A stretch of DNA of 64,000 nt from Linderina pennispora (taxonomy: Eukaryota; Kickxellomycota; Kickxellomycetes; Kickxellales; Kickxellaceae), in assembly GCF_002104995.1 (NCBI RefSeq), contig NW_024468249.1:2852001-2916000 (forward strand). The letters are read 5' to 3'. Below, piece by piece: positions 38,988 to 62,530 of the stretch. The translations under genes were made by a program, and so were the position numbers. The notes under the pieces were generated by a model that was given only the letters and a program-made list of their open reading frames with translations, made no database searches and was not told the DNA's origin. Every line of letters begins with the position of its first letter. Position 1 is the stretch's first letter.

Positions 38988-39603
38988 TTTTGTCTGATGA
39001 GAAGATTGTAAAAGAAAGCTGAAAAACAGGACGATGAGGAGAAAAGAGCAGGGGTCGACCGATGCCCGGATCCCGCTCCTTTTATAGACCCGCGGATGCA
39101 AGGCCGCTGGGCCAAGGAGGGCGCCACACCTGCCGTGACAGCTTCGCATGCGAAAATTTTTTGGGCTTATCGTGATCCGCGCTGCGCTTCCCAGTGACGT
39201 CTGTCAAACCTCGGGCATTAAATTACTAATCCCCGCTTTCTCACCCCTTCCACCCGTACGCCTGGTGTCGCGCGGCTGTCGACTTCCGGACATGCCGAGG
39301 CCACATCGTCGCCTCTGCTGCAGGCTACATAGGGTGTATTTGTCCGACCATGGCCTGCTTGTCGTAGTGAATCAGCTACTGCGCGGAAACACTGGGCAGT
39401 ACCTCCGGTTCGTAACGCCAGCGCAGCTACTGCAGTCCCACCAGCAGTCCTCTCCCCCAATCCCGGGCTCCGCCGACTTTCGGCCTAATTGAATTAGGAA
39501 ATCGGCTCAGCGCAATCCCCCCTCCAGATGTCCACGTTGCACGTGCTGACCAAAGAAGCAGCTCTGTTCTCCTCTACTTGCCAATGCTAATTTTCTTTAA
39601 ATA
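38988..39603. promoter_or_regulatory. divergent promoter region
   Basis: Upstream region shared by the peroxiredoxin (minus) and DCC1-like (plus) genes. A sequence reading TATAAAAGG on the minus strand (plus: ccttttatag, about 39077-39086) lies about 95 bp before the peroxiredoxin start and is a good TATA box. Confidence 0.6.
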
Positions 39604-43952: not shown

Positions 43953-45333
43953 TTAGTGGCCGCCATAGGGCGCTGAGCTGGCAGGACTCGAAGTAGGGGC
44001 CGGAGCACCACTGCTGCCGTCGCTGCAAGCCGGGCACGTTGGACAAGCGGGGGCAGGGGGCGGGCAGGCTGGGCACTGGGGAGCCGGAGGGCAGGGCGAC
44101 GGTGGAGGCGGAGGTGGCGGAGGGGAGAACGACGGTGTGCAGATCGGAGTCGGGCATCCCTGGAAGCATCCGCATCCGCATCCGCATCCGCACCCGCAAG
44201 GCGGCTCGACGATGTAGTGGGTCACGCAGCACTCAGTCGACAGGCCATCGTCGCAGCTGCACGGGCTCTTGTTGGGCGCGAAGCAGTGGTGGGTCTCGAC
44301 ACACCGGTTGCCGCACTGGTCCTTGACGCAGTTGGTCACACAGTAGTGCGTGCCACAGTTGTCGGCGATCGCGTGCGTAACGATGCACCGCTCGCAGCAA
44401 GAGTCATGGTGGCAGCAGCCGCAGCAGCCACACTGGCCGCATCCGTCGTGCTCCTCGTGGCAGCAGCAGCAATCACCCTCCTTGTGGCAGCAGCAAACAT
44501 CGCGGTGGCAGCCGCACGGATCCTCATGGTTGCAGCAGGTCTCATGGTGGCAGCAGCAGGGTCCTTCGTGGTGGCAGCAGGTCTCGTGATGGCAGCAGCA
44601 CGGATCCTCATGATGGCAGCAGCACTCTTTGTGGCAGCAGTCGCCATTCTTGTGGCAGCAGCAGCACTTGTGATCGCATCCGCACGGATCCTCGTGGCAG
44701 CAGCACTCCTTGCGGCAGCAGCAGCCCGGCTCATCATGGCAGCAGCAGTCGTGGTGGCAGTAGCAGCACGGATCCACGTGGCCGCAGCACTCGCGCTGGC
44801 AGCAGCAGTGCTCGTGGTGGCAGCAGGGGTGGCAGCAGCACTCATTGTGGCAGCAGCAGGGCTCGTGGCAGCAGCACTCGTGATGGCAGCAGTCCTGGTG
44901 GCAGCAGGATCCGTCGCGGCGGCAGCAGCAGCAGTGGCAGCCATCAGAACAAATGGAGATCGGACCCTTATCGCAGCACGGATTGCACTGGATCCTGGTG
45001 CAGCACGGCTCGCAGCACACCTCACCGCACGGGCCAGTGCAGCACTTGTAGTGGACCTCCTTCACAAAATTGTGCGTCTTGATCACCGCCGCGGGCTTGC
45101 AGCAGCAATCATCATCGTTATCGACATGCAGATCAGAGTACGTGTGGCAGTTAACGCAGCATGGGTTGCACGGGTTCTGGTACGCGACCGTCAAAGGAGG
45201 CGGCAGTGCTACAGTTGCTGGACCTGCCGCAGTCTGTCGCCGTCGGCTCCCCATCTGACCCATACCCGCCTGCTGATACGACTAGCACAAACGCCAGTAG
45301 CGCCAAGATGGCGCTGAAGAAGGTCCTTGTCAT
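43953..45333 (-). CDS. secreted His/Cys-rich repeat protein A
   Basis: A signal peptide starts at the ATG ending at 45333 (MTRTFFSAILALLAFVLVVS). After one frame change near 45265 (one extra base) the main 400+ residue frame follows. The body is an array of CC-His units such as CCHHECCCHEPCC, CCHHDCCCHDEP and CCHHETCCNHEDPC, at about 45000-44450. It is flanked by more ordinary Cys-containing segments (CVTNCVKDQCGNRCVETHHC) and a Pro-rich tail with CPACP units. Cys dominates the repeat, with His, Asp, Glu and Pro. Such a composition would bind divalent metals or form dense disulfides; the function is unknown. It is the first of ten same-strand cluster members and the only one with the long Pro-rich tail. 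Confidence 0.75.
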
Positions 45334-46482
45334 TGTGGAGAAAGCTGCTGATGAGGAAGGAAATGCGGCTGATATACACAGATGTGTCGGGTGACAGACG
45401 AAAGAAAACAATAAACGGGCTGTGAAATGCTGCTGTTACAGCTACTACGAGAGCAGTGCGATTACAGACAGTGGAAGTGTGGAGTGTAAGAAAGATATAA
45501 ATAAATAGCAAGGTGTACCGGACTGAAACTCTAAGCAATAAAGAGATGCCAGACGCACGAGGAGAGCAAGTGCTATATGTGGAAGAGTGGGTAAACTATT
45601 AGAGCACACTGTAAGACTGCTGAATAGATGTGATACTGGAGGTATGCCTGAGTGATCTGCAGCCAGGTATAAATATGAAATCACACACGACACCCGCGCC
45701 ATTCGCAAGCAGTCAAACTCCCAGGCACTCATCATTGCAGAAATATTCATATCCCGCACAGGGTGCTAAAGACCGTGGGTTCCTGATGAAATTCAGGGGG
45801 ACGAGGAAGAGGGGGACTGAGGAGGAAAGCAGTGTATGTGTTGCTCCCACATGCTCCCAGGGCTATCTACCAGGAAGCCAGAATGCATTCATCTGCTGTG
45901 CGTTCCCATCAACGATTACCTCTCATATTTTTCAACCACCCCGCCTTTCTTAGCCGTCTCAGATTATTTCCAGCATTTACAGAGATTCGAATATTTAGTG
46001 TTTCTTTTCTTTATGTCTCCGCATAAATTAACGATTATTATTCTCACGATAGTAGCTAATCTACGACAAATACTGGTGGGGGGGGGGAGGACGATAGATG
46101 GGCGTAGGAGCTCAACTGGTGTTCCACTCGCGTGTCTTGTTGTTTGGGTAAATTGTTTATTGCATCATCCTGATTACTGCACAAGGATTTCGAACGAGAC
46201 TCTGCCTTTATGCAATCGAGTATACGGCTGAGGTAGAAACAGCTCATATAGCTGACCTTGTCGGCGCCAAGGGTACGTGGACACAGCCATGTTTAGACAC
46301 AGCGGTTGTTTGTGGCTGTGTGACACCTAATATTAATGTTGATTTGCCTACTATGAGGCATAAATTGTTGATGTGGAAGGTACTAAAAATTACATAAGGG
46401 AATGTGTGCCAAAATGCAAGAGGTGTTGAAGAAAGTGCTAGGAGTAGCTCAAACAGATGCCAGAGGAGACCCTGTAGCAAGG
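45334..46482. other. intergenic region, upstream of gene A
   Basis: AT-rich region with TATA-like gatataaataaa at about 45494-45505. No gene is supported. Confidence 0.4.
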
Positions 46483-48605
46483 TCACTTTTTGGTATTGCT
46501 GTTCAAGTACTTGCGTCCTCTAACGAGAGGAGAGCCTGGAATATATGCGTTGGAGGCAGGTGCATATGCAGGGGATCGTGGGATGTATGCCGGGGGACGG
46601 GCTGCATACATTGGAGCAGCAGCAGCAACAGCAGCCTGGCTACCAACCTGAGCAGGTGTGCCTCCAGGCCTGACAGCTGACTGGGCACCAATAGCAGTCC
46701 CCCCACGAATGAGCACGCACCGATTCTGATCGGAAACAGTGCGTGCGAATGCTGCAGGCTGCACACTGCAGCCGGAATAGCATGTACGGGTACGCACAGG
46801 CGACCCAGCAGGACCAGTCTCGCCTTGAGGGCCAGCGGGACCAGGAGAACCAGGAGAACCAGGAGAACCAGGAGCACCAGGAGCACCAGGAGCACCAGGG
46901 GCTCCAGCAGGACCAGCAGGACCAGCAGGACCAGCGGGACCAGCAACATACCTGATACACGGAGTTCCACATGTTGCAGCCGCTTGGCCAATCTCAGTAT
47001 TGGCCACTGTGCTGGCAACAGCTTCAACAGCAGGAACACCGCCCAGAACCTGCGGGCAGCCAACGTGGGTAACAAGGTGATGGACGTAGATAGGAGGTGG
47101 AGGAGGCGGAGGAGGCGGAGGCTGGCAGCATGCTCTGTTCTGGTCTCCGTTGAACCCTTGGCCGAACTCATAGGCACCACCCTGTCCATTGTTCCCGCCG
47201 TCGCTTCCACCATTGCTGTCGTCATTGCCTTCGCCACCGTTCTCGCCATTCCCGCCGCTCTCGCCATTCCCGCCGCTCTCTCCTTCGCCTTCGCCTTCGC
47301 CTTCACCCTCACCCTCACCACCATCGCCCTCGCCTTCACCACCACCCTCACCTCCCCCATCGCAGCCTTCGTCACCACCGCAACAAGCCTTGGTCACAGC
47401 ATGGCTGACAGCATGGTTGACAGCACTGGTGGCAGCAGCATGGCTGGCAGCAGTGGCAGCAAGGATGGCAGCAGCAGCAGCAAGGATGGCAGCAGCAACA
47501 GTGGCAGCAGCAATGGCAACAGTGGCAGCAGCAGCAGTGGCAGCAGCAGCAATGACAACAATGGCAGCAGTGGCAGCAGCAGCAGCAGCACGGGCAGCAA
47601 CAACAACAACACGGGCAGCAGCAACAGCAACAGAGGTTGTTGCCGCGCACTTCAGTGCCATTCATCGCTATATCCAGCATCTTGGTATCGTTTCCAACGG
47701 TCATCCATCCGTCTATCATTGTACCGTTGCCCATGAAGAAGTATGGCCGGAGCCCATTGGTAACTGTGTCGTTGATGAACATTGTGCCGTATGAGTGAAA
47801 CTGGTTCTTGTCGCCAAACCGCATAACCACGTTATCGAACGGCTGCATGCCCTCTGGTCCCCAGTAGCTTTTTGAGCCGTTGACCCCTTGGTGGAAAATA
47901 ATGTTTGGCATCCCAATCCACTTGCGCATGTGGTTGCCCTTTCTGTGTCGCCAGCGCGATCCCGGCAAGGGCTGTGCCTGTGTGAGGTCTTGCTGTGTCT
48001 GACCACCAGCAGCGTCCTTGTGTGCTGTTTGAGATAGCACCACTCCCGCTCCAGATATGTGCAAATCTGCTGTTTGTTTTTGGGGTGGGTGATGCCGACG
48101 TGCTCGATTGCGCCGAGGCTGATACAGCTGGACTAGCGATAATCGGTGCGCCAGCTGGGGCAATCGCGGGTGGTTGGACAGGGGTAGCAGCAGAAGCAAA
48201 CGGATTGGCAACAGTGAGCTGCTGCTGAGCCATTTGAATGGGGCGTGAACGGGGAAGGACAGGTACTGACACTGCGGCAACAACTGCCATAACCTGCTGT
48301 ATCGGCGCAGGCAATGCAGCTGTTTGCACGGCAGGAGTCAGGGCAGAGGGACATAGTGTCTCAGTCAAGGGAACAGATATGGCATCCAGTTCAGATTCGG
48401 TGATAGATGGGTCGCCTCCAGCCTCATGCACTACCACACAGTCGTGCAGGTTAGCGTCAGAATCGGGCAGAGCGGTATGTTCGGCCGCTGCTTCTGGGGC
48501 AGCGATTGTGGAACCAACGGCTGCAACCACGGGGATCGACTGAGGGAAAGCGTGCACTTGCAGCAGCAGGATCGCAATAACGGCAATAGCAGTGCGTGCT
48601 AGCAT
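46483..48605 (-). CDS. secreted glycoprotein-like protein B with poly-Cys and collagen-like domains
   Basis: The N-terminus has a signal peptide (MLARTAIAVIAILLLQVHA) and an Ala/Pro/Ser-rich spacer. A globular-looking segment follows (GMQPFDNVVMRFGDKNQF, FINDTVTNGLRPYFFMGN) with several N-glycosylation sequons. The junction VRGNNLCC then opens a poly-Cys repeat (CCPCC, CCHCC, CCQPCC). After it come an acidic Gly/Glu run, a run of ten Pro, and 16 collagen-type GXY triplets at 46798-46941. The tail is PAYIPRSPAYAPASN-like. Two frame changes, near 48060 and 47390, each need removal of one extra base. If the join is right the protein is about 700 residues. Function unknown; it looks like an extracellular matrix or wall component. 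Confidence 0.7.
46798..46941 (-). repeat. collagen-like GXY tract (16 triplets)
   Basis: Sixteen uninterrupted Gly-X-Y triplets: GPA four times, GAP four times, GSP three times, then GPA GPQ GET GPA GSP. The DNA is a 9-bp-like repeat seen on the plus strand as tandem aggaccagc/aggagcacc units. Such tracts can form a collagen triple helix, although only 48 residues are present. Confidence 0.9.
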
Positions 48606-49401
48606 TGTATCCCGTCTTGTCGTGATATATGTGGCTGATCAAGTGGGTGCAGTGTCTAGTAAATGACTGGGTGATGATATGCAAAAATATAAAAATATGC
48701 AGGGTGGCTGTAAACAAGTTGGGTGTATAGCGGTGAGGTCGTATTGATTACTTGAAACCCGATTTTAATGGAATTCTACCAGACACCACACGTCTTATAG
48801 AGCCAGGACAACATCACAGCACCACTTGAAATTCGGCTCATAATGGCATTGGGCTATCTTCCCCACATGAAAAATGGTCACACCCTTCCCAGGCAGGTTG
48901 TACCTGTGTTTTACCCTGTCACATAAACAGCACTAGATTATTCTCATGGTGCTTTCTTGATCGGTGGCGGTGGCAGGCCAGTGGGGTCTCAGAAATGGTG
49001 TAGAACAGTAGCAAAGGCTCGAGGGATGGTGCGGCTGAATTCCAAGACAAACCTCCGCTATCAAAAGAATTCACAAGGTATTTCGTAAAGCGGGGGTTGT
49101 GGTTCGTACTCCATCAAAGATAAACACCTTGTGAGTTTTGTGATACTCAGTGGGTAGTTTGGCAATGTTCGCAAGGTGTGGCCACTGCATATCGCCACCC
49201 AACTGCTGGTTCAATGATTTATTATGAGACATATTTTGGAGATTAGTGCGAGGAATGTGAGAATAGTAGGAAGGGGGAGCTGATCAGAATAAAAATGTGG
49301 CAGAGTTTGCAAGAGAAAGCGTGAGGTGGATACACTGTATGCCTTTGCAGCTAATACGCGCAAGGGCAGCCAATGCAGATTTGATGGTGGTAGAGGTATG
49401 T
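48606..49401. other. intergenic region, upstream of gene B
   Basis: No gene supported. A TATA-like tract (aaaaatataaaaatatg, about 48683-48699) lies about 80-90 bp before the start of gene B. Confidence 0.4.
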
Positions 49402-50332
49402 TTAGCAACAGCAGCAGGGGCAGCAACAGCAGCAGGGGCAACAGCAACAGCAGCAGCAGCAGGGGCAGCAGCAGCAGCAGCAGCAAAGGTTTTTGCCAGC
49501 GCGACGGCCAGAACTAGCCTTGCCTGTTGCGAACGATGCCAGCAGAGCGGTTAACCTGGGCAGCAGCAGCATTGCTTTTGACCAGGGTACTGCGGGCAGC
49601 TGAAGAGGGAGTCTGAGCTGAAGCTGATTTGGCGTAGTAATAGAGGCCACAGGGGCCTTAGCATTACCAGTGGGCGAAGCGAAAGAAACAGCGATTGCGG
49701 CTGTTGAAGCAGTTGGCCATGCGTGCGTTTCCAGAAGCCCGGATGCACTGCTGGAACTGGCGCATCCATGCCTGCTGCTGGTCTGGAGTCACCAGGATGG
49801 CTGTTCCCATTTCTGGGAACGGCACATGGGAAGAAGAGCATCATTTGCTCCATATGTGGCTGCTGGCCTTGCTGCTGGGCGTTGGGGCCAAGTGGTAGTG
49901 GTTGGGACAGAACTGTCGGCAGCCATGCGGCAACGAGCATCTATAGTGTTGCTGTTACCAGCGTTGCAGAATACTGGGTTCGGATGCAGGTTGGGGTTGG
50001 GCATGAACAGGGGCAGCAGCCATAGGCGCCGGAATCGAAAGCGAGGGTCCTTCGGCGCAGACGGTGACAGTGGCCTGTAGTCTCAAATGTGTTGTGCGCC
50101 GAGGTAGATGCCTGTGGGGCATTTGGCTCCGAAGGAGACATCTTGATGTCAACAAGCGAATAGCCATTCGTTGCTCTGCCAAGGGATGGCCTGCGGTAGC
50201 TCATTGTGTGCAGCAGCCAGTGGGGCAGGATGAAGCAGATGATTCAGGGAATGGTGCCTGCAGGTGAGAAAGCTGTGGCCTGTGGAGGCAATGAGCACAG
50301 CAGAGAAGAGGCGAAGGACACGGATGGGCCAT
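49402..50332 (-). CDS. secreted poly-Cys protein C, frameshifted
   Basis: The C-terminus is RRAGKNLCC followed by a nearly pure Cys/Pro repeat ending at the stop at 49402. Upstream, in other frames, are QQQGQQPHMEQMMLFFPCAV (comparable to the MWLIFP segment of genes D and E) and MSPSEPNAPQAS. At the 5' side, removing one base from a CCC after the ATG ending at 50332 gives a good signal peptide (MAIRVLRLFSAVLIASTG). Several one-base shifts are required overall, so the internal sequence is only partly defined. The TATA box at 50487-50496 supports this start. Confidence 0.55.
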
Positions 50333-50486
50333 TTGACTTATACCGAAAATCTGGACTTCAGGGCTAAAAGGGATGATGGAGCTTGCTGCAAAAACGCTGA
50401 GGGGCTGTGGCAGGAGAGAGCAGGGAGGGCTAAGAGGATCGAATTGCTGATGAGGGTTAGATAGGTAGGCGGTCGCGGATGTTGGA

Positions 50487-50496
50487 CCTTATATAC
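50487..50496 (-). promoter_or_regulatory. TATA box of gene C
   Basis: GTATATAAGG on the minus strand, about 155 bp before the proposed ATG. Confidence 0.6.
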
Positions 50497-51331
50497 CAGC
50501 TGCTCTTGAGAAACTGGTGTACCAATAAAACAGCCTCCAAAAGAACTTGCGCACTGAGGCGCACACGAGCAAATTTTGCACACGTTACCAGAGCAAGTGA
50601 GCGGTTTACCACACTACCCTGCGAACAATCTGGTCTACCAGGGAAAAGGAATTGAGCAGACACACGATAAGCGAGTGAGTGCAGATGCTAACATCACACG
50701 GCAGTGCTGTCCAAGGGAATATTACCACGTCCAATTTTCACACTTGGCTTCTGGCTGTGCATAGCCTCACTCCGTTTGCTCTATCGTGTCCAAAACGGTA
50801 TATATTAAATGTGGGGGTACGTGGGTGTGGGTGGTGAAGCCCAAAGAAAATGCACCCACCAGTCGCTATCCCCACGCACACGGTCCCCAGAAACACTACT
50901 ACCCTCAATCTTTGGATCATGGGCACTGTTTTTCTATGCGCTTGGGCTGATTTCGGGAACCATTTGCAGAATGAGCCTGCCGGATAATGGAAATATATGA
51001 TGTAAAGCTTGCGGCAGCAGAGGAAAATAGGCGAGTTGAGATGAGCCATGGACAGCTACACTGCACTATACTACACTGTGTGGCTGAGGGGCTTATGCTA
51101 AGTAGATTGGTTTGTATTTTATAGCGGCGGGTAAACAAGAGATTAGATCTAACCACAGAGAAGAATAGATATCAACAAGAGTCATCGTTTCTCAGGTAAG
51201 CACTTTAAATGTAAAAGTGCCTTACCTTTGGCCGACTGCTATGTAGCCAAAAGCAAGCACTGATTGATGGGTGAGCCCGTGACCCGGGTTCATTGTGAAC
51301 CAAGCGCACTACTACCGCTTGTTTAGTGGCA
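50497..51331. other. intergenic region
   Basis: No supported gene between cluster members C and D. Confidence 0.4.
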
Positions 51332-52128
51332 TCAGCAGCAGCAGCAGGGGCAGCAGCAGCAGTGGCAGCAGTGGCAGCAGCAGCACTTGCAGCAGCAACA
51401 GCAGCAGCAAGGGCAGCAGCAGCAGCAGCAAGGGCAGCAGCAGCAGCAGCAAAGGTTCTTGCCAGCACGGCGACCTGCAATAGGCTTTCCATCACGACCA
51501 ATCTGAACAGCATTCTTCCCATTGGCAGCGACGGCCGCCTTTCCAACTAGTTGACCGCTCTTGTTGCTCAGATTTCCAACAAGCTGACCGCTCTTGTTGT
51601 TCTGAGCAACACTGCTAGGCGATTTCTGAGGCTGCCGACTTACTTGCGTCAATGTTCTTACCAACCCCTCCTTCGCTAGACTTGCGGACAACCCCAGCCG
51701 CACTCTTTTGGAATAGCCCAAGTCCACGGTGGTTATCAGCTGGGGCACTACCCGGCATCTTTTGTTGCTGAGCAGCCATGTTGTTCTGGCAGTTGTCCTC
51801 ACACGGGAAGATGAGCCACATCGGTGTCATCTGCTCTTGGCCATGCTGAGCCTGGGCGTTATTTGCAGCCTGCTGGTAGGAGTGCGTATCAACACCATGG
51901 TTCTCCATCGGAAAGCTATCCTTCTTAACAGCTGCAGGAGCCATATTCACTTGACCTGGTTGAGCTATCTGCGGCATGCTCTGACCCAGGGTGCTGACAG
52001 CAGTGGAGCAGTGGAGCAGCATGATCAGCAGCAAGAGCCTGAGTGGTCTCAACCTGAGCAGCTGGGGCAGCGAATGCAACGGCAGCGAGGGTAAGGAAGG
52101 CAAAGGGGCGGAGGGCAAAGCTGACCAT
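51332..52128 (-). CDS. secreted poly-Cys protein D, frameshifted
   Basis: A signal peptide starts at the ATG ending at 52128 (MVSFALRPFAFLTLAAVAFA). A Gln/Asn-rich spacer follows with the segment MTPMWLIFPCEDNC, then a tandem pair NNKSGQLVGNLSNKSGQLVG. The junction is RRAGKNLCC, and the poly-Cys repeat includes CCKCC and CCHCCHCC units before the stop at 51332. Three frames are used and each change is one extra base. The gene is a close paralogue of C and E by its order of segments. Lys and His within the repeat distinguish it from the purer repeat of gene C. Confidence 0.7.
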
Positions 52129-53145
52129 TTTAGCAGATGGACAGATAAGGCTGTATTTGAGGGCAGGGTTGGCGAAATGGAGGCGGGTAGCAGACAGGGG
52201 GAAGCAGAGGAAGCAAATAGAAAAGCTGGTGCGTGAATGCTGAGAATATCTAGGGGTGGCCTGCTGACTGTCGACTCTTATATATCAAAATGGTAAGCAC
52301 CCCTTCTAGGAATACTTGCATAGTCATTGGCCTGCGGAGATACGTACTCAGGTGAGTGGTAGTGTGCAAAGGCGTTATTTTCTCAAATACTCTAATGGTG
52401 AATGCAGCAATTTATGTATTAGATGTATCGGGAAATATGAGAAACATAGCTGATACTGCTTGCATCGATAGTGCTAATATCGGTGAGTCCTTTTTGCGAA
52501 TATGGTGACGTGCCCGTATAGAGCGTCGCTTTCTCACGATTAATATTTGGAGGATATTAAAAAATGCCAAGGACCCCAAATAGAAATTTGCTCTTGGCTG
52601 TCTCTCTCATACTAACCTACCCCGCAACAAAAGTCTACCGAGAGAAGTATGTCATAGACAAAGAAACACACCAGTTTATATCGCGTTTCATAGATCTAGC
52701 GCCTGAGCTGTGGTAGAGGATGGCGCTTCCATACTATCGGCACTGAATTGTAATTTAGGCAGACAAACATGCCCATGGATAGCAGCAGCACTAGGAGTAG
52801 TATGGTTAGGAAGAGGGTCTGCAGCTGGAACTCACCCAGCGTGTTGAAGACATATACACGTACTTGTCTGAACTGTTCCAGAAATAAAGTTAATTGGTAT
52901 GCCACCCTGAGTATAGCAAAGTTATACTACAGCGCACCAGGAATCTAGTTCAGCTATTGGCTATATTAGGTAACCATTAGTGTCCGAATAACGAGCACAG
53001 CGATTAGAAAGAGATTAAACATCATGAGGCAAGATATTAAATCTATAAAATAGAAAAAACAAAGTCGGAGAAGACTATTGGTTTGCAGATCTTCAGTGAA
53101 ACTAGATAGTGATGTGGTTTGGCAATCTAGTTCCAACCATCCACC
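52129..53145. other. intergenic region
   Basis: About 1 kb between cluster members D and E. A short minus-strand frame at 52696-52905 has a hydrophobic segment (LQTLFLTILLLVLLLSMGMF) and could be a tiny membrane protein, but nothing else supports it. Confidence 0.35.
52277..52286 (-). promoter_or_regulatory. TATA box of gene D
   Basis: GATATATAAG on the minus strand, about 150 bp before the ATG. Confidence 0.6.
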
Positions 53146-53899
53146 TTAGTAGCCGCCGCCGCCGCCACCGCAGCAGCCGCAGCAGTCGTGGCAGCAGCAG
53201 CAGCACGGGCAGCAGCAGCACTTGCAACAGCAGCACTTGCAGCAGCAGCACTTGCAGCAGCAGCATGGGCAGCAGTGGCAGCAGCAGCATGGGCAGCAGT
53301 GGCAGCAGTGGCAGCAGCAGCATGGGCAACAGCATCCACAGCATCCGCAGCAGAGATTCTTTCCAGCAGGACGACCACCAGTCACGCCCTTCTGCTTGCC
53401 GTTTGCAGAGACAGATTTTGCGTTCTTTCCGGCAGTCGGGGTGGCAGCAGGTGCCTTGCCAGAAGCCGAAGAATTCTTGGTTAGGGTCTGGCGGACCTGG
53501 CTGTTGCTCTCCTGAGGGGGCTTCACGACCTGCTCAGACTCAGGGAAGATGAGCCACATTTGGCCTTGGTCATTAGCCTGTGTGTTCTTGGGTACACTTG
53601 CCAGGCATGTTGTTCTTTGCACTAGCACGAGCCCGCCTGTTGGAAAAGTTCACATGGTTGGCTGCATCGGCAGCCCAGGCCAATCTTTTCCTGTGGAATA
53701 GTCGAGTCAAGGGCAGGGGTGTTCGAGCTGCGCGGAATAGCAGCGGAAATAGGCGTTGCCGAGAAGCCAGCAGCCTGGATTGGCTGCGACTGAGACAGCG
53801 TTGTTCCCATTGAGGTTGGTGCCGGCAGCTACAAGGGGAGAAGCGGTTGCAGCGCCGATAGTGAGCAGAAATTGAAACGAAGGATTTGAAGTTAACCAT
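53146..53899 (-). CDS. secreted poly-Cys protein E, frameshifted
   Basis: The start MVNFKSFVSIS, continued after one base as FLLTIGAATASPLVAAG, gives a signal peptide. The spacer contains GQMWLIFPESE, as in gene D, and Lys/Thr/Ser-rich sequence. The junction is GRPAGKNLCC. The repeat has CCHCCHCC and four CCKCC-like units (CCCCKCCCCKCCCC) and ends in a Gly run followed by Tyr (GGGGGGY) at 53146. Four one-base insertions are needed over the first 100 codons; the C-terminal 160 codons are clean. Confidence 0.7.
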
Positions 53900-54845
53900 A
53901 GCTTGGACTCGATGGATGCAAAAACGATGATTAGGTGACTAGGCGAATATCAAAATACTGGATGGATGAAAGGATGCAAGATACTAAATTCAGATGCAAT
54001 ATAGTGAAAATGCAGATGACTAGGCAGATGATGATGGTGTTTTTGTGAGTTGGAACAAGGGTTCCGACCGTTTATATATCCTGGCAAGGGACTGTCCTCT
54101 GACTCTTTTCTCTCGCAAACCCTATTGCACATGTGCGTGCTTGCGAGCTGCTGCTTAGGTTGCATTGAGGCTATCCCGCATATTAGTAATTTAGCATACT
54201 CCATTTTGCATATTGGCTTTTCACGAATTGCTTCACACGCAATAATTATCAACCGATGATTCGGGAAAGTATTGTGGAGCATTTGCCACATATCATTACG
54301 ACAGACATCGCAATGTCGGGCTCCCACCAGACTCTTTTCAACAGCAGCCAGCGTATGCAGAGGGGTACGTGTATACCGGCCTGATTACTCTAAACCACAG
54401 GTACAATAAATGTATAGTAAACTGATCGTTTGATTCCATTGCAGTCGAATTGTAGGGTGTTGCCATCAAAAAGCTCTGCATGTCCCATGCTCGAGTGATG
54501 GGCCAGCGATAGTTGCGTGTCATTCCGGATCAGCAATGGACAAGGAATGTAAATGCTTAGTACTGGCCAATGCGACATTTGATGGTAAGAACCATATCTG
54601 TCAATTGTCCAATGAGTGACTGAGGAGATACAGTCATTTGCCACTGCCAGAAACATAAGTAGCATGCCTTCATGTTTTTGCTTGTGAAGTAATACTGTTA
54701 TATGGCACTGGATTTATTTAGCAGGCGAAATAAATATCGAACGATCCACTGCAAAAGTATGAAGATGTTAACTAATTAGCAATGATTATTATAGTAGTGA
54801 CGTAAACGTGCATTTTAAGAGCGAGTCACAACACCGCTATGGTGT
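53900..54845. other. intergenic region
   Basis: No supported gene between cluster members E and F. Confidence 0.4.
54071..54080 (-). promoter_or_regulatory. TATA box of gene E
   Basis: GATATATAAA on the minus strand, about 175 bp before the ATG. Confidence 0.6.
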
Positions 54846-55798
54846 TTAGTAGTGGTTGCCGCACGGAGGAGGGCAGCAAGGTTGCTGGCAGCATGGCTGG
54901 TGGCAGCAAGGAGGGGGGGGCAGCACGGAGGGGGGCAGCACGGAGGAGTGCAGCAGCAAGGCTGATGGCAGCAGGGAGGCGGTGGGCAGAATGTATGGAT
55001 GACAGTGTGGCAGATATGTTGGCAGCAGGGATCGTGGCAGCAGCAGTCATGGTGGCAGCAGGGATCGTGGCAGCAGCAGTCATGATGGCAGCAGCAGTCA
55101 TGGTGGCAGCAGCATGGCTCATGGCAGCAGCATGGCTCATGGCAGCAGCAATCGTGGTGGCAACATTCCTGGTGGCAGCACGGATTGCAGCAGCAGTCGT
55201 GGTGGCAGCACTCATGGTGGCAGCAGCAGCCGTCGTTGTGGCAGCACTCATGGTGGCAGCACTCATGATGGCAGCACGGGTTACAGCAGTCATGGTGGCA
55301 GCAGCAAGGCTGGCAGCAAGGCTGGCAGCAAGGCTGGCAGCAAGGAGCATGACAGCAGCATTCGTGGCAGCACGGCTGGCAGCAGATGCACTGGTGGCAA
55401 CAGCAGTCCTTGCAGCCCTTCTTACCGCAGCAGATAATGCAGCACGGCTGGCAAGCACGGCTGGCAACATGGCTGGCAACACGGCTGGCAGCAACAATCA
55501 CAGCACAGGGTCTTCCCTGGCGTGTCTGTTATCGGCGGCGGCCTGAGTTGGGCTTCCAGCAGTCTTGCATGCATTGACGTCATCAGGAGTATTGGCAAAC
55601 AGCTGGTTCGGGGCTAAAAGTGGCAGTCACCGGAGTCTGAACCGAAGCAATTGAAGCAGGAGTAGCAGCATGGGTAGCAGCAGCAGCAGTCTTCTTGGCA
55701 TCAACACTGGTTGTGGCGGCGTTGTTTGTTGGTACGGCGAGCGCGCCAAGCATGAAAGCCAAGAAGGCCAAGAACGTAAAGAATGCCGATTTCTGCAT
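54846..55798 (-). CDS. secreted His/Cys-rich repeat protein F, frameshifted
   Basis: The signal peptide is MQKSAFFTFLAFLAFMLGAL, followed by an Ala/Thr-rich spacer (AAAATHAATPASIAS). The junction TPGKTLCC opens a repeat of CCQPCC units, then CCHHECC, CCHHDCC and CCCHEPCC units. The C-terminus is Pro-rich (CCPPPCC) and ends PPPCGNHY at the stop at 54846 once a last one-base shift is allowed. Shifts are near 55590, 55470 and 54890. The repeat vocabulary is shared with genes A and G. Confidence 0.7.
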
Positions 55799-56670
55799 TA
55801 GGGTAGAGGTCGAGGAGGGTAATTAGGTCGACTAAGTAGCAGTGCGTGCAATGGGTGTTAATGTGCGAGAGATGATGATATTAATGAGGCTGTGGAAACA
55901 TCAGTGTCTGATTTGAAAATAGAAATCGCAGCCCATGCTGGTTAATATATACGAAAAATGTGACGAAAGCAATCAGTATTAGCGTCAAGCTAAGCTCTGC
56001 TCGCTGCACCGCTATTCCGGACATACTAATGTTAGAGGAAATATTTGCCTATTTCAAAGGGGAACGTGTGATATTGCTTATTGCTGTCACAGATGTGGGC
56101 TTTGATCAGGGGTGTGGAGGACGGACATATAAAATATGGTGGGGGGGTTCATTTTTGAAAAGCCAACCCACAGTATACAAGGCAAATCCTTCCATCTCAC
56201 GGTATATTGTCCTCTCCGGCTTTTCCACTACTATAATTAATGCAGCTTATGTAGCTTGCAATGTAATCATCTCCGCATGGCTCGTATAGGGATAGCCAGG
56301 GTGCAAAAATAAAATGGATAATATACAGGCACACTGGTTGGAAATAATATCTGCCAAAGGCAATATTGCATCGCATTGAATGCAGTATATTGCGCTCGTT
56401 ACACAGCCATGATTTGTAGCGGTATTTGTGCAGTAAGCGGCTGTAAAACAATGCATACATTGGTAATTCGATACACTTTTGAACATATGCTTTGCAACAA
56501 AGGATTTTTATTGATATTTGTCGACTAAAAGCTAACTAGCAGATTGACCTCTATATGAATAAACCACAAAGGTTCTACCTGAGTGTTAGGTAATTAGGAA
56601 AGGAGCATTGGGAGTGCTTTAGAGTAATGATTAGTTGATTGGTATCAATCTGATAAGTAGTTGAGGTAAC
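55799..56670. other. intergenic region
   Basis: No supported gene between cluster members F and G. Confidence 0.4.
55943..55952 (-). promoter_or_regulatory. TATA-like element of gene F
   Basis: GTATATATTA on the minus strand, about 148 bp before the ATG. Confidence 0.5.
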
Positions 56671-57384
56671 TTAGGAACAAACGTTGCTGTTGCAGCACGA
56701 GTCGCACCAGACGTGCTGGAGGCAGCCGTTCTTGTAGATAGCAGTGCGCTTGATGTGGTAGCAAGCCGGACCGCAGCAGTCATGGTGGCAGCAGCAGTCG
56801 TGGTGGCAGCAGCAATCGTGATGGCAGCAAGGATCATGGCAGCAGCAGTCGTGGTGGCAGCAGCAGTCGTGGTGGCAGCACGGCTCATGGCAGCAGCACT
56901 CGTGGTGGCAGCAGCACGGTTCATGGCAGCAGCAATCGTGGTGGCAGCACGGCTCATGGCAGCAGCACTCATGATGGCAGCAGCATGGCTCGTGGCAGCA
57001 GCACTCGTGGTGGCAGCAGCACGGTTCATGGCAGCAGCACTCGTGGTGGCAGCAGCACGGCTCATGGCAGCAGCACTCATGATGGCAGCAAGGACCGGGA
57101 TAGCAGCAGCAGGAGTCGTGCTGCCAGGCACCATCGCAAAAGTTCTTGCTGGCACCCTTGGTCTCGTGGGCCGCAGCAGGAACTGGCACTGCAGCAGCGT
57201 GGGCAGGAGCGGCAACATGAGCAGGGGCGGCAGCGTGAACAGGAGCAGCAGCGTGAACAGGAGCAGCAGCGACGGCCGCGCCGTTTTTGGTAACAGCAGC
57301 ATTCACATTCGTCGCCGGAGCAGCCATTGCCGCCATAATGAGGGCAAGGAATGCAAGGAACGCAATGAAGGTAGGCTTGAACAT
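56671..57384 (-). CDS. secreted His/Cys-rich repeat protein G (intact)
   Basis: This 237-residue uninterrupted frame is the best model for the family. The signal peptide is MFKPTFIAFLAFLALIMAAM, followed by an Ala/Pro/His spacer with AAPVHAAAPVHAAAPAH. The junction KGASKNFC leads to a repeat built from an approximately 12-residue unit, CCCHEPCCCHHE, with Asp variants (CCHHDCC), at about residues 98-205. The C-terminal cap is more complex and basic (YHIKRTAIYKNG, then VWCDSCCNSNVC). About 80 Cys and 40 His in 237 residues would be expected to chelate many metal ions or form a disulfide network. No known family is recognised. Confidence 0.85.
   Translation of the reverse strand: MFKPTFIAFLAFLALIMAAMAAPATNVNAAVTKNGAAVAAAPVHAAAPVHAAAPAHVAAPAHAAAVPVPAAAHETKGASKNFCDGAWQHDSCCCYPGPCCHHECCCHEPCCCHHECCCHEPCCCHHECCCHEPCCCHHECCCHEPCCHHDCCCHEPCCCHHECCCHEPCCHHDCCCHHDCCCHDPCCHHDCCCHHDCCCHHDCCGPACYHIKRTAIYKNGCLQHVWCDSCCNSNVCS
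56760..57090 (-). repeat. tandem 36-bp-type repeat encoding CCCHEPCCCHHE
   Basis: Units of about 36 bp, seen on the plus strand as cagcagcactcgtggtgg followed by cagcagcacggttcatgg with small variants, make up this block. It is read in the Cys frame; the other five frames also stay open and give spurious poly-Ala or Ser/Gly frames. Confidence 0.8.
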
Positions 57385-58322
57385 TATCGAAACCGATTAG
57401 CAGATATTATGATCAAGTAAAAGTGGTTAACGTGTAGCTGGGCTAGTTGCTGGCTAGGAACTGCTGGCCGTTGAGACGGTAAGAAATAGATAGGTGACAA
57501 GAGAACCTAATAAGGTTTGCTGATGTTGTTGTGTTGGGTGCCGGTTTCCACCTGCCACAGTTTATATAGGGTTGCGTAACTGCCAACCAGAGGCAACTAA
57601 ACCTCACTTGTCTATATATTACCCCATGGGGTGGGAGAAAAGGCGGGTCGCATATCTCCGCATTTAATTCACTCTCCAATGATATATTGCCCACATAATA
57701 TCAGACTTTGGGTGTACCTTAGTTTGATGAGGGGGGCTTATTATGTGGGAGTAATTAGCAGTCTGTGGGTAATCCACGCTTTTTTAATACATGTGGGAAG
57801 ACAATATCCATAGGGCATACTCAGGCTCAACTCTACGCTAATGAGGCCGCTGTGGGAGCTCAAAATCCAATATTAAGGCACATGCTATTAAATTCCTATT
57901 CGAATAATCTGCGGGAATATCTGGTATCCGATTTATCGAACAAGAAAGGCTGTTTAACTGATCCATCACCGGTATATAAATCAAAAACAGCTTTACCACA
58001 TAATGAATCAGCGGGAATTCTAGGTGGAAAGTGTGACAATGTGGACTCTAAAAGGATTTGGATAGCGCTAATATTATAATAGATTCACAAAATATTAATG
58101 AACTATGCGTGATATAAGAAAAGATTGAAGTGAAGTGAGCGAGGCTTGGTGATAATGATCCCTGCCATCGACACAAGTACCGATGATAAGGAGATGACAA
58201 AATCGGTTTGTAGAAAATAGCCGGATTTCGAAGTATTGCCTCTAATGATAAAAATGAGAGTTGGTGGTAGCAACACTGTCCGTATTTCTGGAACTAGCTG
58301 GTCGCAAGTAGGGCGTATCTTA
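57385..58322. other. intergenic region
   Basis: No supported gene between cluster members G and H. Confidence 0.4.
57561..57570 (-). promoter_or_regulatory. TATA box of gene G
   Basis: CCTATATAAA on the minus strand, about 180 bp before the ATG. Confidence 0.65.
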
Positions 58323-59231
58323 TTAGCCACGGCAGCAGCCACCGCAGCCACCACATCCACCGCATCCGCAACCCACCCGCATCCCGCCGCAGCCACCACA
58401 TCCGCCGCATCCGCACCCGCCGCATCCACCGCATCCACCGCACCCACCACGGCAGCACCCACACCCGCCACAGCCACCACAACCGCCATAGCCACCATAT
58501 CCACCACATCCACCACATCCACCACACCCACCACACTGACCGCAGCCGCCGCAACCTCCGCAACCACCACACTGACCACAACCGCCATAGCCTCCATAGC
58601 CACCGCATCCACCACAGCCGCAACCGCGGCAGCATCCACCACAACCACCGCATCCACCGCATCCACCACACTGACCGCAACCGCCACAACCACCGCATCC
58701 ACCACACTGACCGCAACCGCCACAACCACCGCATCCACCGCATCCACCACAGCCGCCGCATCCGCAACCACCGCAGCCGCCACAGCCACCGCATCCGCAA
58801 CCACCGCAACCACCGCAACCACATCCACCACAGCCGCCGCAACCGCCACCGCATCCACCACAGCCGCCGCATCCACCGCACCCATTACAACAACCACCAC
58901 AGCCACCGCATCCATTGCAGCAACCACAACAGTGGAGGTCCTTAGCCTGAGTGTGTAGAGCAGAAAGGGGCGAGATGGGGTTAGAGCGAAGAGAAACTGA
59001 AGGGGTGGTGGCGGGAGAATTCTCAGGCTCGACATGAGGTTCGTCGATCTTTGCACATTGCGGCTGCAGGAGCTGCTGCAGAGGACCCGGGTGGGCCACT
59101 GCCGCTGCCTGATGTGGGGTGATGATCAGCGGTGCACTGTTCCTGTTCTGATCAGATGCCGGTTGAGATGTAGCAACTCCCAGAAGTATCGCAAGGAAGG
59201 TAAGCACTAGCAGGAGACTCGGCGTCTGCAT
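58323..59231 (-). CDS. secreted Gly/Cys-rich (CGG repeat) protein H
   Basis: This intact 302-residue frame has a signal peptide ([20 protein letters not shown]) and a spacer rich in Gln/Pro/Ser. From about residue 100 to the end it is an almost uninterrupted array of Cys-Gly-Gly triplets (GGCGGCGGC with occasional N, Q, R, Y). There is little His, unlike genes A and G. Glycine-cysteine triplets of this length resemble cuticle or wall structural proteins rather than enzymes. The DNA is a ccaccg/ccgcat triplet repeat on the plus strand that also keeps the other frames open. Confidence 0.85.
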
Positions 59232-60103
59232 TTTTGCGTGTATACTTTAGCAAATCTGTAAATATATAGATTGCTTAATGAAGCAGGCTGGTTGATTGTG
59301 TGGAGGTTATGCAGTGAAAGACGATGGCAGCGGTAGTGTAGCAAAATAATTTTTGGAATCTGCTGGGCGTGTGAATCCAATGAATTACTGGGAATGAAAA
59401 GAACAGAGCTAAGTAGAGTATAACAGAATGCTGTTACTAGTGAATTGGAGATAGACTTGGTAAGGGAGTTGCGCCATACCAGCCAAGTTATATACGTGTT
59501 CCCATCCGCTTCAAATCCCGGTACACTGGCCACCCACTTTGCACACGACCCAGCAAAACTGGCGCAGTCTATGGAGGTGCATCGAAACAGTGGATAAGAC
59601 AGGCATATCGCTCATATTTTGTGGGGAACCCAGGCCGTAGACAAGCGTGTTGAGAATTGAAGTTGCGTGAATAGGACTTGGATAATTCCCACCCACACCT
59701 ATCTCGTCACTCATACTGTGTTCCTAGTTCAGGATGCACGGACTCCACAGTGTGCATTCAAAAACGCGTAAGGGAGAAATATTCTGGAACCGTGAGCAGG
59801 ATCCTGTGAGGAATTTGTTCTGTGGAGGCTAGGAGTAGAGTTCGAGCAAAAACAAGTGTGTTGGACGTCTCAGCGCGTTTACGGTGATCAAGACATGGCA
59901 GTAGAGTAAGATTAGAAGTAGACTCAAGAGGCCACAAGGAATAGAGCTAGTGGTCTCTTGGCCCTAGTTCCATGTTTTAGATTTTCGCAAAAAAATGACT
60001 AGGAATAATTGAAGTACCAAGAAAGCTGAAACGCGCCAACCGTGGATCGAAATAAGGGAGCTGGGATGGAAAAAAGATATTGTTAATGCACAAACAGAGC
60101 TTA
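59232..60103. other. intergenic region
   Basis: No supported gene between cluster members H and I. Confidence 0.4.
59487..59495 (-). promoter_or_regulatory. TATA-like element of gene H
   Basis: GTATATAAC on the minus strand, about 257 bp before the ATG. Confidence 0.5.
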
Positions 60104-60805
60104 TTAGTAACCACTCTCACCACCCTCACCACCATAGCCGCCATAGCCGCCATAGCCGCCATTGCAGCAGCAGTTACCAGGCTCGGCGCAGCAAGTTTGG
60201 TGAACAACAGTGTGAAGGACTGTTGTACAGCAAGGTGGACAGCACTGGGATTGGCAGCAACACTCACCATTACCACCATATCCCCCGTATCCGCCATACC
60301 CGCCGTACGGTCCGTACCCCCCATATCCGCCATATGGACCATATCCACCGTATCCATTGTATGGACCGTATCCGTTGTATGGACCGTATCCGTTGTATGG
60401 ACCGTATCCGTTGTATGGTCCATATCCGTTGTATGGTCCATATGGTCTATAGCCGGCATAGCCAAAGTTTTCGACACCAGGAGCGCCCCAGGTATTATAT
60501 CCGTTGCTACAGCAATGCCCTCCAGAGCCACACCCTCCGCATCTACCGTACCCATCCCAACCACCATTACCACAGCACGGCCCGCCACTATGGCAATATC
60601 CATCATCGCAGAGTGCCTTAGCATGTCTGACAAAGATAACTGGGTCTGCTGTCTTCGAAGGGGCTATGGAGGCCACCTTCTCGTGAGAAACCTCTGGACT
60701 GTGGGCATGCGCCTTTCCCTTGACCTGGGAGACAGCTGGATCGGCAAGTGAGACAACAGCGAAAGCAAGAAGCGCCAGAAGAGCGATAAGTGATGATCTT
60801 TGCAT
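60104..60805 (-). CDS. secreted Gly/Tyr-rich GPYNGY repeat protein I
   Basis: This intact 233-residue frame has a signal peptide (MQRSSLIALLALLAFAVVSLA) and a His/Lys/Ser spacer. A Cys/Gly segment (CGGCGSGGHCC) follows, then five GPYNGY units and GGYGPYGGYGGYG-type sequence, and a final Cys block (CCCQSQCCPPCC) ending in YGGYGG. The composition is like Gly/Tyr-rich silk, shell-matrix or cuticle proteins. It shares the signal-peptide style, strand and promoter layout of its neighbours, but Tyr/Gly largely replaces Cys in the repeat. Tyr could support di-tyrosine or phenolic crosslinking; this is inference. Confidence 0.85.
   Translation of the reverse strand: MQRSSLIALLALLAFAVVSLADPAVSQVKGKAHAHSPEVSHEKVASIAPSKTADPVIFVRHAKALCDDGYCHSGGPCCGNGGWDGYGRCGGCGSGGHCCSNGYNTWGAPGVENFGYAGYRPYGPYNGYGPYNGYGPYNGYGPYNGYGPYNGYGGYGPYGGYGGYGPYGGYGGYGGYGGNGECCCQSQCCPPCCTTVLHTVVHQTCCAEPGNCCCNGGYGGYGGYGGEGGESGY
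60350..60445 (-). repeat. 18-bp tandem repeat encoding GPYNGY
   Basis: Five near-identical 18-bp units (tatccgttgtatggaccg on the plus strand) encode GPYNGY. Two further units at the edges are degenerate. Confidence 0.9.
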
Positions 60806-61537
60806 CTTGTTGTTTCTGGAACTGTAAAATGGTAGTGTCGATGCTGTGCGTGAAAAATGAGAAGGGGAGATGAGGTCAAATGCAATGGAATTGATGTTGT
60901 GTGTCGCGGGTTGACTGTTGCTAGATTCTAAAGCACAGAGCTGAATTTATACAATATTCAAGTGATGTGTAGTGCACAAGTAGGCATGAATATTCTGTCT
61001 GATGCCCTGTCTTGGGGTTGTTTGCCATGGCCATGAAATTGTAACATGCTATACCGATTTTCTGTATTGGGTCCTGCACCATGGACAGAGCATATTGGTT
61101 CATTATTTAACGATTTGGCATGCGAAAATATCCTCAGTAGGTGTGGGCCCTGCACCCTGGTTGTAGTAATATAATAAATGAAAGTGCTGGAAATTGTAGC
61201 GCAAATACGAACATGCACTTTTTCCCAGGGACCGCCTACACATAGTATCTAAGAGAATTCGTTCCTATTGTGGCAGTTATTTGCATCGCAAAACATGCGA
61301 TGGGGGTTGCATCGCCAGCCCAAAGCGGCTGCTGGTACTACCACGTTGGTCGAAATACAGCGCAGCATTCACTATAACTTGTGGAGTATTCATGACACAA
61401 GGCTAGGGTATGGTTGTTAGAATATAAAAATATCAAAAGTGAATATGAAAAATATTAAGGCTTGAAACAATACCAGAAATCCATATGGAGCAGAAGCAGA
61501 CAAAAAAATCGGAAATTGACCAGTGAGCGATGCCTGT
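60806..61537. other. intergenic region
   Basis: No supported gene between cluster members I and J. Confidence 0.4.
60945..60952 (-). promoter_or_regulatory. TATA box of gene I
   Basis: GTATAAAT on the minus strand, about 144 bp before the ATG. Confidence 0.55.
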
Positions 61538-62530
61538 TTACTCTTCACCACCATCGTCTGCGTCGCGCTGACTACCATGGCTCTTCTTGCACTTGTGCTT
61601 GCCTTTCTTTCCGGCCAAAGCGTGAGTGCTTCCATGCGATAGCTTCTTTTTGCCATTTTGGCCACCGTCATCACCACAGCAATTGCAACACGGGTTCTGA
61701 CACCAGCATGGGTTTTGGCAGCAACAGTTGTTCTGGCAACAGCAAGGGTCCTGGCAGCAGCAATTATCCTGGCAGCAGCAGTTGTTCTGGCAACAGCAGG
61801 GGTCCTGGCAGCAGCAGGGAGGGCAACCACAGCAGCATGGCGGCGGCGGTGGTGGCGGGCAGCAGCAAGGTGGTGGTGGTGCGTAGCGGCAAGCAGGGCA
61901 GCCACAACCACATGGCTGGTTTATACAGCACCGTGATCCACAGACAGGCGTTGGCTCAACACACGGCAGCGCGCGATGGCAGTCACCGCACCCGTACTTA
62001 TACGGCGGGCCCACAACAGGCAAAGAGATCGTGGCCATACCTTCCAGGGTTGGGTCAGGCATAGTCAGATGGTACGTGGGAGTGCCCTCATGGTGGCAGC
62101 AGCAGCACGAGCATCCGTTGCTATCCGATCCTCCATCATGTGCTGCTTTGTTTTTGTGGCAGCCCTTGCGCACAACTCCTTTGACAGCAGCGTCTGATAC
62201 CCCAGTGGTCGCTTTGGTCAGATCGGCTGCTATTTTAGACACTTCGGCGGATTCGGCGCCAGTATCAAGCGCCTCTGTAGGTTCAGATTCAGCATCAGGT
62301 TTCCCAGAGGCTGCTACGCGGTTGTTTCCGGATGGGGAGGGTAACAACTCGAGGTCCGGATCACGTGTGGTAACATCAACATGTAACATGTCTTGTACAA
62401 TGGTTTCGGGAAGGACGGCGCTGGATGTTACTGGCTCGGCATTCGATGCATGGTGGTGGTAAGGCAGGCTGGCTGTACCAAGCGTACCAAACAGCAGCGA
62501 TACCAACAACAAGAGATGTGGTTTCCTCAT
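61538..62530 (-). CDS. secreted Cys/Gln-rich repeat protein J
   Basis: This intact 330-residue frame has a signal peptide (MRKPHLLLLVSLLFGTLGTA), an acidic Ser/Glu/Ala spacer of about 120 residues and a first Cys cluster (SNGCSCCCCHHEGTP). A mixed segment with paired Cys (CGSRCCINQPCGCGCPAC) comes next, then Pro-Cys runs and an array of CCCQDP, CCCQNN and CCCQDN units. The C-terminus is basic (GKKGKHKCKKSHGSQ) and ends acidic. Gln/Asn take the place of His in this repeat. It is the rightmost member of the cluster. Confidence 0.85.
   Translation of the reverse strand: MRKPHLLLLVSLLFGTLGTASLPYHHHASNAEPVTSSAVLPETIVQDMLHVDVTTRDPDLELLPSPSGNNRVAASGKPDAESEPTEALDTGAESAEVSKIAADLTKATTGVSDAAVKGVVRKGCHKNKAAHDGGSDSNGCSCCCCHHEGTPTYHLTMPDPTLEGMATISLPVVGPPYKYGCGDCHRALPCVEPTPVCGSRCCINQPCGCGCPACRYAPPPPCCCPPPPPPPCCCGCPPCCCQDPCCCQNNCCCQDNCCCQDPCCCQNNCCCQNPCWCQNPCCNCCGDDGGQNGKKKLSHGSTHALAGKKGKHKCKKSHGSQRDADDGGEE

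Follow-up and report, generated by a model that had tools for sequence, protein, structure and literature searches.

Ten adjacent loci in the genome of Linderina pennispora appear, with modest confidence, to form a Kickxellaceae locus that encodes components of a secreted, disulfide-cross-linked structural matrix. Linderina is a genus of Kickxellaceae. The loci, A to J (Table 1), lie at 43,953-62,530 of the window, which is the whole stretch of 64,000 nucleotides that was analyzed (contig C1, positions 2,852,001-2,916,000, in an assembly of 26.17 Mb and 222 contigs). By open reading frame (ORF) reading, they stand in a row, all on the minus strand and head to tail. Secretion is supported by the sequence. 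From the cysteine (Cys) content, the secretion, and the mixture of parts, we infer that disulfides would cross-link the products. An earlier note on this DNA had described ten consecutive minus-strand genes. The ten loci are there, but ten equally intact genes was an overstatement, as only G, H, I, and J have unbroken ATG-to-stop frames in the window and A to F carry frame breaks. The repeat types that had been assigned to the individual genes were all found again in our readings, and the start of gene A, previously placed at 45,263, is corrected to 45,333.

CTG tracts are common in this genome, where gene B DNA has 55 matches among the best 40 of 42 candidates scored. The Cys frame therefore needed to be demonstrated and could not be assumed. 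Allelic contigs made this possible for part of the cluster. Contig C209 is an allelic copy of 53.9-64 kb of the window and is 94-95% identical, and contig C80 is an allelic copy of 40.4-46.2 kb and is 98% identical. Single-nucleotide polymorphisms (SNPs) between alleles were counted in all six frames, and those within 3 columns of a gap were dropped. The expected synonymous fractions were 0.28-0.38. In the Cys frame, 10 of the 11 SNPs of gene F (55,427-54,848) are synonymous (p = 3e-4), as are 11/17 in gene G (p = 0.006), 18/26 in gene H (p = 3e-4), and 19/34 in gene J (p = 0.002). The repeat of gene G alone gives 8/9 (p = 0.001), and its single change is D to E. The Cys domain of gene J alone gives 7/10 (p = 0.007) and only 2/10 in the Ala frame. 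For comparison, two neighboring genes have 8/14 (p = 0.03) and 6/11 (p = 0.08) synonymous SNPs. The other coding-strand frames show no synonymous excess among the allele SNPs. Longer indels between the alleles are multiples of three in gene G (18 and 3) and include such multiples in gene H (63, 33, and 9; also 8, 14, and 4) and gene F (12 and 18; also 11 and 13). Those of other lengths in H and F may be alignment artefacts or errors. Because the allele differences are mostly silent in the Cys frame, this frame can be taken as coding; judged from the alleles, it is translated and under purifying selection in F, G, H, and J.

The starts of the genes point to secretion. A signal-peptide-like core was defined by our own threshold, a mean hydropathy of at least 2.0 over 10 residues, read from the ATG. 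Eight of the ten loci (A, B, D, F, G, H, I, and J) possess such a core, compared with 9 of 75 other ATG ORFs of at least 100 residues in the window, real genes included. A shared plan that opens with a signal peptide, as previously claimed, therefore holds for these eight and fails for C and E as assembled. Neighboring ATGs are 1.6-1.9 kb apart, and the gap from A to B is 3.3 kb. A TATA-like heptamer is found 140-200 bp upstream of the ATG in seven of the ten loci (B, C, D, E, F, G, and I). When positions are placed at random, the interval from -200 to -140 contains such a heptamer in 2.2% of cases over the whole window and in 3.7% over the cluster, which gives p of about 1e-8; this value is generous because the interval was chosen after the sites were seen and the ATG of C is assumed, although the ratio is still large. 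Gene H has a TATA-like heptamer at -263, and none was found within 300 bp upstream of the ATG of A or J.

Gene A is the member with relatives in the protein database. The database was searched with A, G, and J, and the candidates sharing the most words were scored (8000 for A, 8000 for G, and 2206 for J). Among its best 8000 candidates, A found 11 relatives, all from Kickxellaceae genera, with E values from 2.7e-95 to 4.8e-16. Nine are from Coemansia (C. erecta, C. asiatica, and seven other strains), one is from Kickxella alabastrina, and one is from Dipsacomyces acuminosporus. In six well-framed rows of the alignment, Cys is invariant at 13 of 15 positions in the N-terminal domain, 11 of 15 in the C-terminal domain, and 8 of 74 in the repeat. 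In five relatives, the Cys content of the repeat is 23-41% and the His content 12-26%. Thus, the repeat keeps its chemistry and varies in length and sequence. The expectation that the plan would be conserved in related species is borne out for gene A, which is kept across Kickxellaceae with its conserved flanking Cys domains and its Cys/His-rich repeat. Together, the allele SNPs in the Cys frame, the signal-peptide-like starts, the TATA-like promoters, and the conservation of gene A support the proposal that these are protein-coding secreted repeats and not microsatellite DNA.

Deposited gene models appear to conceal such proteins. The deposited model of gene J, DL89DRAFT_254653 (P0002), matches our J at 99% over 58% of its length. 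It follows the Cys frame for residues 1-189 and the Ala frame for residues 190-336. Five of the relatives of A, the Coemansia and Dipsacomyces models P0008-P0012, have Ala/Thr stretches where the repeat is expected. A 106-residue run of P0010 fits the +1 frame of P0005, its close relative, and three shuffles reach 5-7. For the remaining four, compared each with a single more distant relative, the compatible runs are short (8-17 residues). P0008, P0009, and P0011 return in frame to the conserved C-terminal domain, and P0003-P0007 read the Cys frame through the repeat into that domain. By these comparisons of frames, six deposited models, including that of J itself, run in an Ala/Thr-rich frame across the repeat. 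Automatic gene models that shift into the Ala/Thr frame can hide Cys-repeat proteins, and searches of protein databases then understate such families. A further model, P0013 (Coemansia sp. RSA 371, on a contig of 2405 bases), has a J-like start (BLASTP E value of 9e-11) and an A-like end. It may be a hybrid gene or a merged model of neighbors.

Within the genome, as far as the searches reached, the Cys repeats are confined to this cluster. Exact DNA patterns for CCHH(E/D)CC have 41 matches in the 26.17 Mb, all in A, F, and G or in allelic contigs, and those for CCCCPCCCC have 9, all in B, C, D, and E. Control patterns read backward have no match in the genome. Searching the genome with the proteins of A, E, G, H, I, and J yielded, among the best candidates scored, only alleles, each other, and the opposite strand for I. 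Four loci with CTG tracts elsewhere (L033, L034, L035, and L036) were also read. L033 and L034 were rejected as further members because they are Ala/Asp/Thr-repeat genes, and L036 because it is a polyGln gene. L033 (563-3926) and L034 (90-3182) represent two differing copies of a large secreted repeat-protein gene, with Thr/Ser/His followed by Ala-Asp-Thr-Gly repeats. The gene beside it resembles what we take to be a macrodomain protein. At L035 (2-190, minus strand, at the start of contig C9), a CTG tract follows a short N-terminal stretch and, in one frame, reads as 39 Cys codons in a row. The tract may belong to another poly-Cys gene that the assembly truncated, or it may be no more than a microsatellite.

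The members of the cluster differ in composition. Gene A contains 27% Cys, F 38%, G 26%, and J 15%. In A, F, and G, the 26-38% Cys is combined with 10-17% His plus Glu/Asp. The poly-Cys pieces of B to E are 61-69% Cys (C 62%, D 69%, and E 61%, over the piece measured), and the longest Cys runs in the cluster are eight residues. Gene H is 23% Cys and 40% Gly, and gene I is 25% Gly, 12% Tyr, and 9% Cys. A Pfam scan covered ten readings from nine loci (C was left out), and Collagen in gene B was the sole family matched (16 Gly-X-Y triplets, E value of 3e-8). The (Pro)10 of this gene ends 50 residues before the collagen, and no other run of at least 5 Pro is present in that reading. Gene B also has 5 N-glycosylation sequons in a stretch of 98 residues, which is consistent with secretion. 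Directly before the Cys domain, C, D, E, and F have the junction R(R/P/H)AGK(N/T)LCC in common (that of F is read in allelic contig C209), and the counterpart in B is RGNNLCC. The MWLIFP motif common to D and E lies upstream of this junction. By these shared motifs, B to F resemble copies of a single design that have since diverged.

Table 1. The ten loci of the cluster, with positions in the window.
Locus	Position	Strand	Features
Gene A	43953..45333	-	signal-peptide-like start, conserved N-terminal Cys domain, CCHHE-type repeat, conserved C-terminal Cys domain, Pro/Cys tail
Gene B	46483..48605	-	signal-peptide-like start, Pro/Ala-rich spacer, sequon stretch, poly-Cys/His domain, Gly/Glu spacer, (Pro)10, collagen, tail
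Locus C	49402..50332	-	GRRAGKNLCCCCCCC... poly-Cys/Pro end; start codon assumed
Locus D	51332..52128	-	signal-peptide-like start MVSFALRPFAFLTLAAVAFAAPA, MWLIFP motif, GRRAGKNLCC junction, poly-Cys/Pro/His/Lys domain
Locus E	53146..53899	-	MWLIFP motif, GRPAGKNLCC junction, CCCCK/CCCCH repeat, Gly tail
Gene F	54846..55798	-	signal-peptide-like start, RHAGKTLCC junction, CCQP and CCHHE/CCHHD repeats
Gene G	56671..57384	-	signal-peptide-like start, Ala/Pro/His spacer, CCCHHECCCHEPC repeat, short C-terminal stretch; intact
Gene H	58323..59231	-	signal-peptide-like start, spacer, CGG/CGQ-type repeat; intact
Gene I	60104..60805	-	signal-peptide-like start, Gly/Tyr repeat (GPYNGY, GGYGGY), Cys-rich flanks; intact
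Gene J	61538..62530	-	signal-peptide-like start, acidic spacer, TPTYH...TISLP stretch, Pro/Cys and CCCQ(D/N)(P/N) repeat, basic tail; intact

A number of observations weigh against a dedicated structural locus. Six of the seven Pfam Collagen matches in the genome fall outside the cluster, and collagen is not special to it. In the protein searches, G found no protein, not even its own deposited model, among the 8000 candidates scored, and J found only its own deposited model among 2206. The SNP test is not significant for gene I (10/18 synonymous, p = 0.09), although the direction is the same. Gene A has 2 allele SNPs, too few for a frame test, and B to E are without an allele, so the test is impossible there. 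In the G repeat, H, and J, silent SNPs are likewise in excess in one antisense frame (p = 0.004-0.04). This excess arises because its third positions coincide with those of the Cys frame, and the antisense frame contains 2-13 stops. Lastly, A to F carry frame breaks, so decay is conceivable at some of these loci and most of all at C.

The breaks can be compared with the second copy where there is one. Gene A has a single break in the window, near the signal-peptide boundary. Contig C80 differs there by one base and reads continuously, and it has later one-base breaks of its own in A. In gene F, contig C209 is one base different at the break before the Cys domain and is continuous at that point, so that the junction runs uninterrupted into the Cys domain. 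A and F thus each have one break that is likely an assembly error, as the second copy reads through it, and introns are not needed at these two places. A further upstream break in F is present in both copies and could be an intron. One-base allele differences number 7 in A, 4 in F, 2 in a neighboring gene read as RRM-like, and 33 outside these genes. The allele alignment has no one-base length difference in G, H, I, J, or the right-hand neighbor. The differences within genes are probably mostly assembly errors, because they would break frames that are kept in the other copy. The assembly is imperfect, as its frequent one-base indels mark. The allelic contigs C209 and C80 (L016 and L017) diverge 2-6% from C1, and their presence makes it probable that the strain sequenced has two haplotypes or two kinds of nuclei.

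Genes B to E bear on the first alternative, which is compatible with a cross-linked matrix. This may be a locus of birth and decay, with functional wall proteins encoded by A, F, G, H, I, and J and decaying copies among B to E. All four of B to E have frame breaks. B and D have at least two each, C has several in its upstream frame, and neither C nor E (read from its ATG) has a readable signal peptide as assembled. DNA searches with parts of D and B found no allelic contig for B to E. For the breaks of these four, error, intron, or decay may fit equally, as there is no second copy. The junction and upstream motifs common to C, D, and E make them look like mutual copies. However, the one-base allele differences frequent in A, F, and the RRM-like neighbor look like assembly errors. 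In addition, TATA-like boxes are kept in B, C, D, and E with the usual spacing, and a good signal-peptide-like start is kept in B and D. We consider decay among B to E to be possible but somewhat unlikely.

The main rival to the structural reading is that these are secreted metal-binding proteins. Their Cys/His/Glu repeats (CCHHECCCHEPC) would hold zinc, copper, or cadmium outside the cell, in the manner of a metallothionein-like sponge or a store of metal, with cross-linking secondary. The earlier note had itself proposed, from the composition, an extracellular material that is either cross-linked or metal-loaded. The pairing of Cys with His and Glu/Asp in A, F, and G suits metal binding, as does the retention of both Cys and His in the repeats of the five A relatives. 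It does not suit the pieces of C and D, which have little or no His, the repeat of H, which is mostly Gly and Cys, the low Cys content of I, or the collagen of B. Secretion favors oxidation, and no reading in the Pfam scan matched a metallothionein. We thus judge metal binding as the principal role to be unlikely.

Secreted Cys-rich fungal proteins are often effectors or antimicrobials, but long Cys runs, here up to eight, and Gly-Tyr and collagen repeats are typical of materials and not of compact ligands. A role as secreted effectors or antimicrobial agents against other fungi or animals is therefore very improbable, even if Kickxellaceae are described as saprobic or mycoparasitic (PMC6492006). 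Hardly any credence can be given to CTG microsatellites or Ala-rich coding sequence with a spurious Cys reading, as the Ala frame of the deposited J model and the Ala/Thr stretches of P0008-P0012 imply, because SNP positions rule it out for F, G, H, and J (the Cys domain of J being largely silent in the Cys frame only) and conservation does so for A, with P0010 fitting the +1 frame of P0005 well beyond the shuffles and P0003-P0007 reading through into the conserved domain.

A structural, cross-linked product has parallels in known systems. By analogy, the cluster would work like the keratin-associated proteins (KRTAPs) of mammals, the high-cysteine chorion proteins of silkmoth, and the minicollagens of cnidarians, and on the features tested it is a member of none of them. 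CCQP repeats are a KRTAP trait, which the repeats of gene F resemble. KRTAPs act inside cells, in the cytoplasm, with keratin filaments. The cluster differs in its signal-peptide-like starts, which argue against a cytoplasmic role, in its His-rich repeats, and in its collagen member. KRTAP genes form tandem clusters that mix high and ultra-high sulfur proteins (about 16-30% and >30% Cys) with Gly/Tyr-rich proteins, according to a study whose authors also question the introns that have been annotated inside the repeats (PMC2528016). They are described as unique to mammals. The likeness is a tandem cluster in which A, F, G, H, and the poly-Cys pieces of B to E have at least 16% Cys, J is lower, and I is Gly/Tyr-rich. 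Composition alone is insufficient for membership, and no KRTAP family was matched in the Pfam scan.

High-cysteine chorion proteins carry Cys-Gly repeats, which those of gene H resemble. In silkmoth, the HcA and HcB chorion genes are clustered, and their secreted Cys-rich proteins enter an extracellular coat and cross-link it (PMC4639761). The chorion A and B genes mostly occur as divergently transcribed pairs with conserved central domains (PMC4639761). In contrast, all ten loci here are on one strand, and no conserved central chorion domain was matched in the Pfam scan. Minicollagens have 12-16 triplets, polyproline, and Cys-rich domains that polymerize by disulfides (PMC4863159). Gene B is similar in having triplets within this range and a Cys-rich domain, and it has one (Pro)10 stretch. 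It is different in that a long distance separates its poly-Cys domain from the collagen and that no further Cys-rich domain of this kind comes after it. The minicollagen pattern CX3CX3CX3CX3CC, with non-Cys spacers, is absent from the three minus-strand frames of the cluster.

Fungal protein families were also compared. The eight-Cys spacing of hydrophobins with two CC doublets was not matched, and no hydrophobin was matched by Pfam in the nine loci. QID74, one of the secreted cysteine-rich repeat proteins (SCREP) of Trichoderma, is a Cys-rich tandem-repeat protein that protects the wall; its repeat units have 59 residues, and the protein is described as highly conserved within Trichoderma (PMC13170347). 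It is likewise a secreted fungal protein built of Cys-rich tandem repeats. By its description it is set apart from the cluster, whose units are about 6-12 residues by reading and whose Cys runs reach eight. NCBIfam gave no family for six readings. Sequence searches of solved structures with G, A, and a profile of the A family gave no match. No description of this protein family was found among the titles and abstract openings listed. The view that no described fungal system has this combination agrees with these searches, which are not a proof of absence.

The matrix could be built as follows. In the oxidizing exterior, the secreted Cys-rich arms would form dense intermolecular disulfides, and His/Glu clusters would perhaps add metal coordination. 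Filler or rod-like parts would come from the Gly-Tyr (I), Gly-Cys (H), and collagen-Pro (B) members. The product would be a tough, insoluble layer at the surface of the sporangiolum or spore, or a dense plug of the septal lenticular cavity. These are the likeliest places, and the evidence does not choose between them. The septa of Kickxellaceae have a lenticular cavity, and the spores form in unispored sporangiola (PMC6492006). The literature search found no paper that pairs 'Kickxellales' with 'septal plug'. To our knowledge, the protein make-up of Kickxellaceae structures, including the septal plug, is not known, and the cluster would supply candidate genes for them.

A bolder proposal, which we hold only tentatively, is that Kickxellaceae possess an extracellular, covalent disulfide composite unlike any described fungal wall component, made from one co-regulated cluster and overlooked through misframed gene prediction. 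It would have separate ultra-high-Cys, Cys-His, Cys-Gly, Gly-Tyr, and collagen-Pro components, and it is possibly a septal plug or sporangiolum coat that marks the group. If the matrix reading is correct, a fungal lineage has independently evolved the strategy of hair and of the silkmoth eggshell, with a gene cluster dedicated to a disulfide-hardened composite. Domains of 60-70% Cys with Cys runs of up to eight would also be useful tests of oxidative folding, metal binding, and new materials.

The surroundings of the cluster were also explored. The sole ORF between the loci that was scanned (45,836-46,228, plus strand) has no Pfam match. ORF listings of the 10 kb to the right of the window (L018) and of the continuation of contig C209 (L037) contain no comparable locus. 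About 5 kb to the left of the cluster is a peroxiredoxin gene (38403-39203; Pfam AhpC-TSA and 1-cysPrx_C), and no evidence ties it to the cluster. Farther left, three tandem secreted subtilase genes occupy 17942-32067. Two of them have open frames that match Pfam Peptidase_S8 and PA. The middle one (about 21540-24227) is split over several frames, through either decay or an error of assembly. Related ORFs that are repeated in the genome, by reading, occur at 25727-28212 of the window, at 5133-6056 of L018, and at 4798-5967 of L037. Of these, the ORF at 27253-28212 has Cys-pair zinc-ribbon-like and NRD-like stretches and no Pfam match, and it presumably recalls Fanzor/TnpB-type nucleases.

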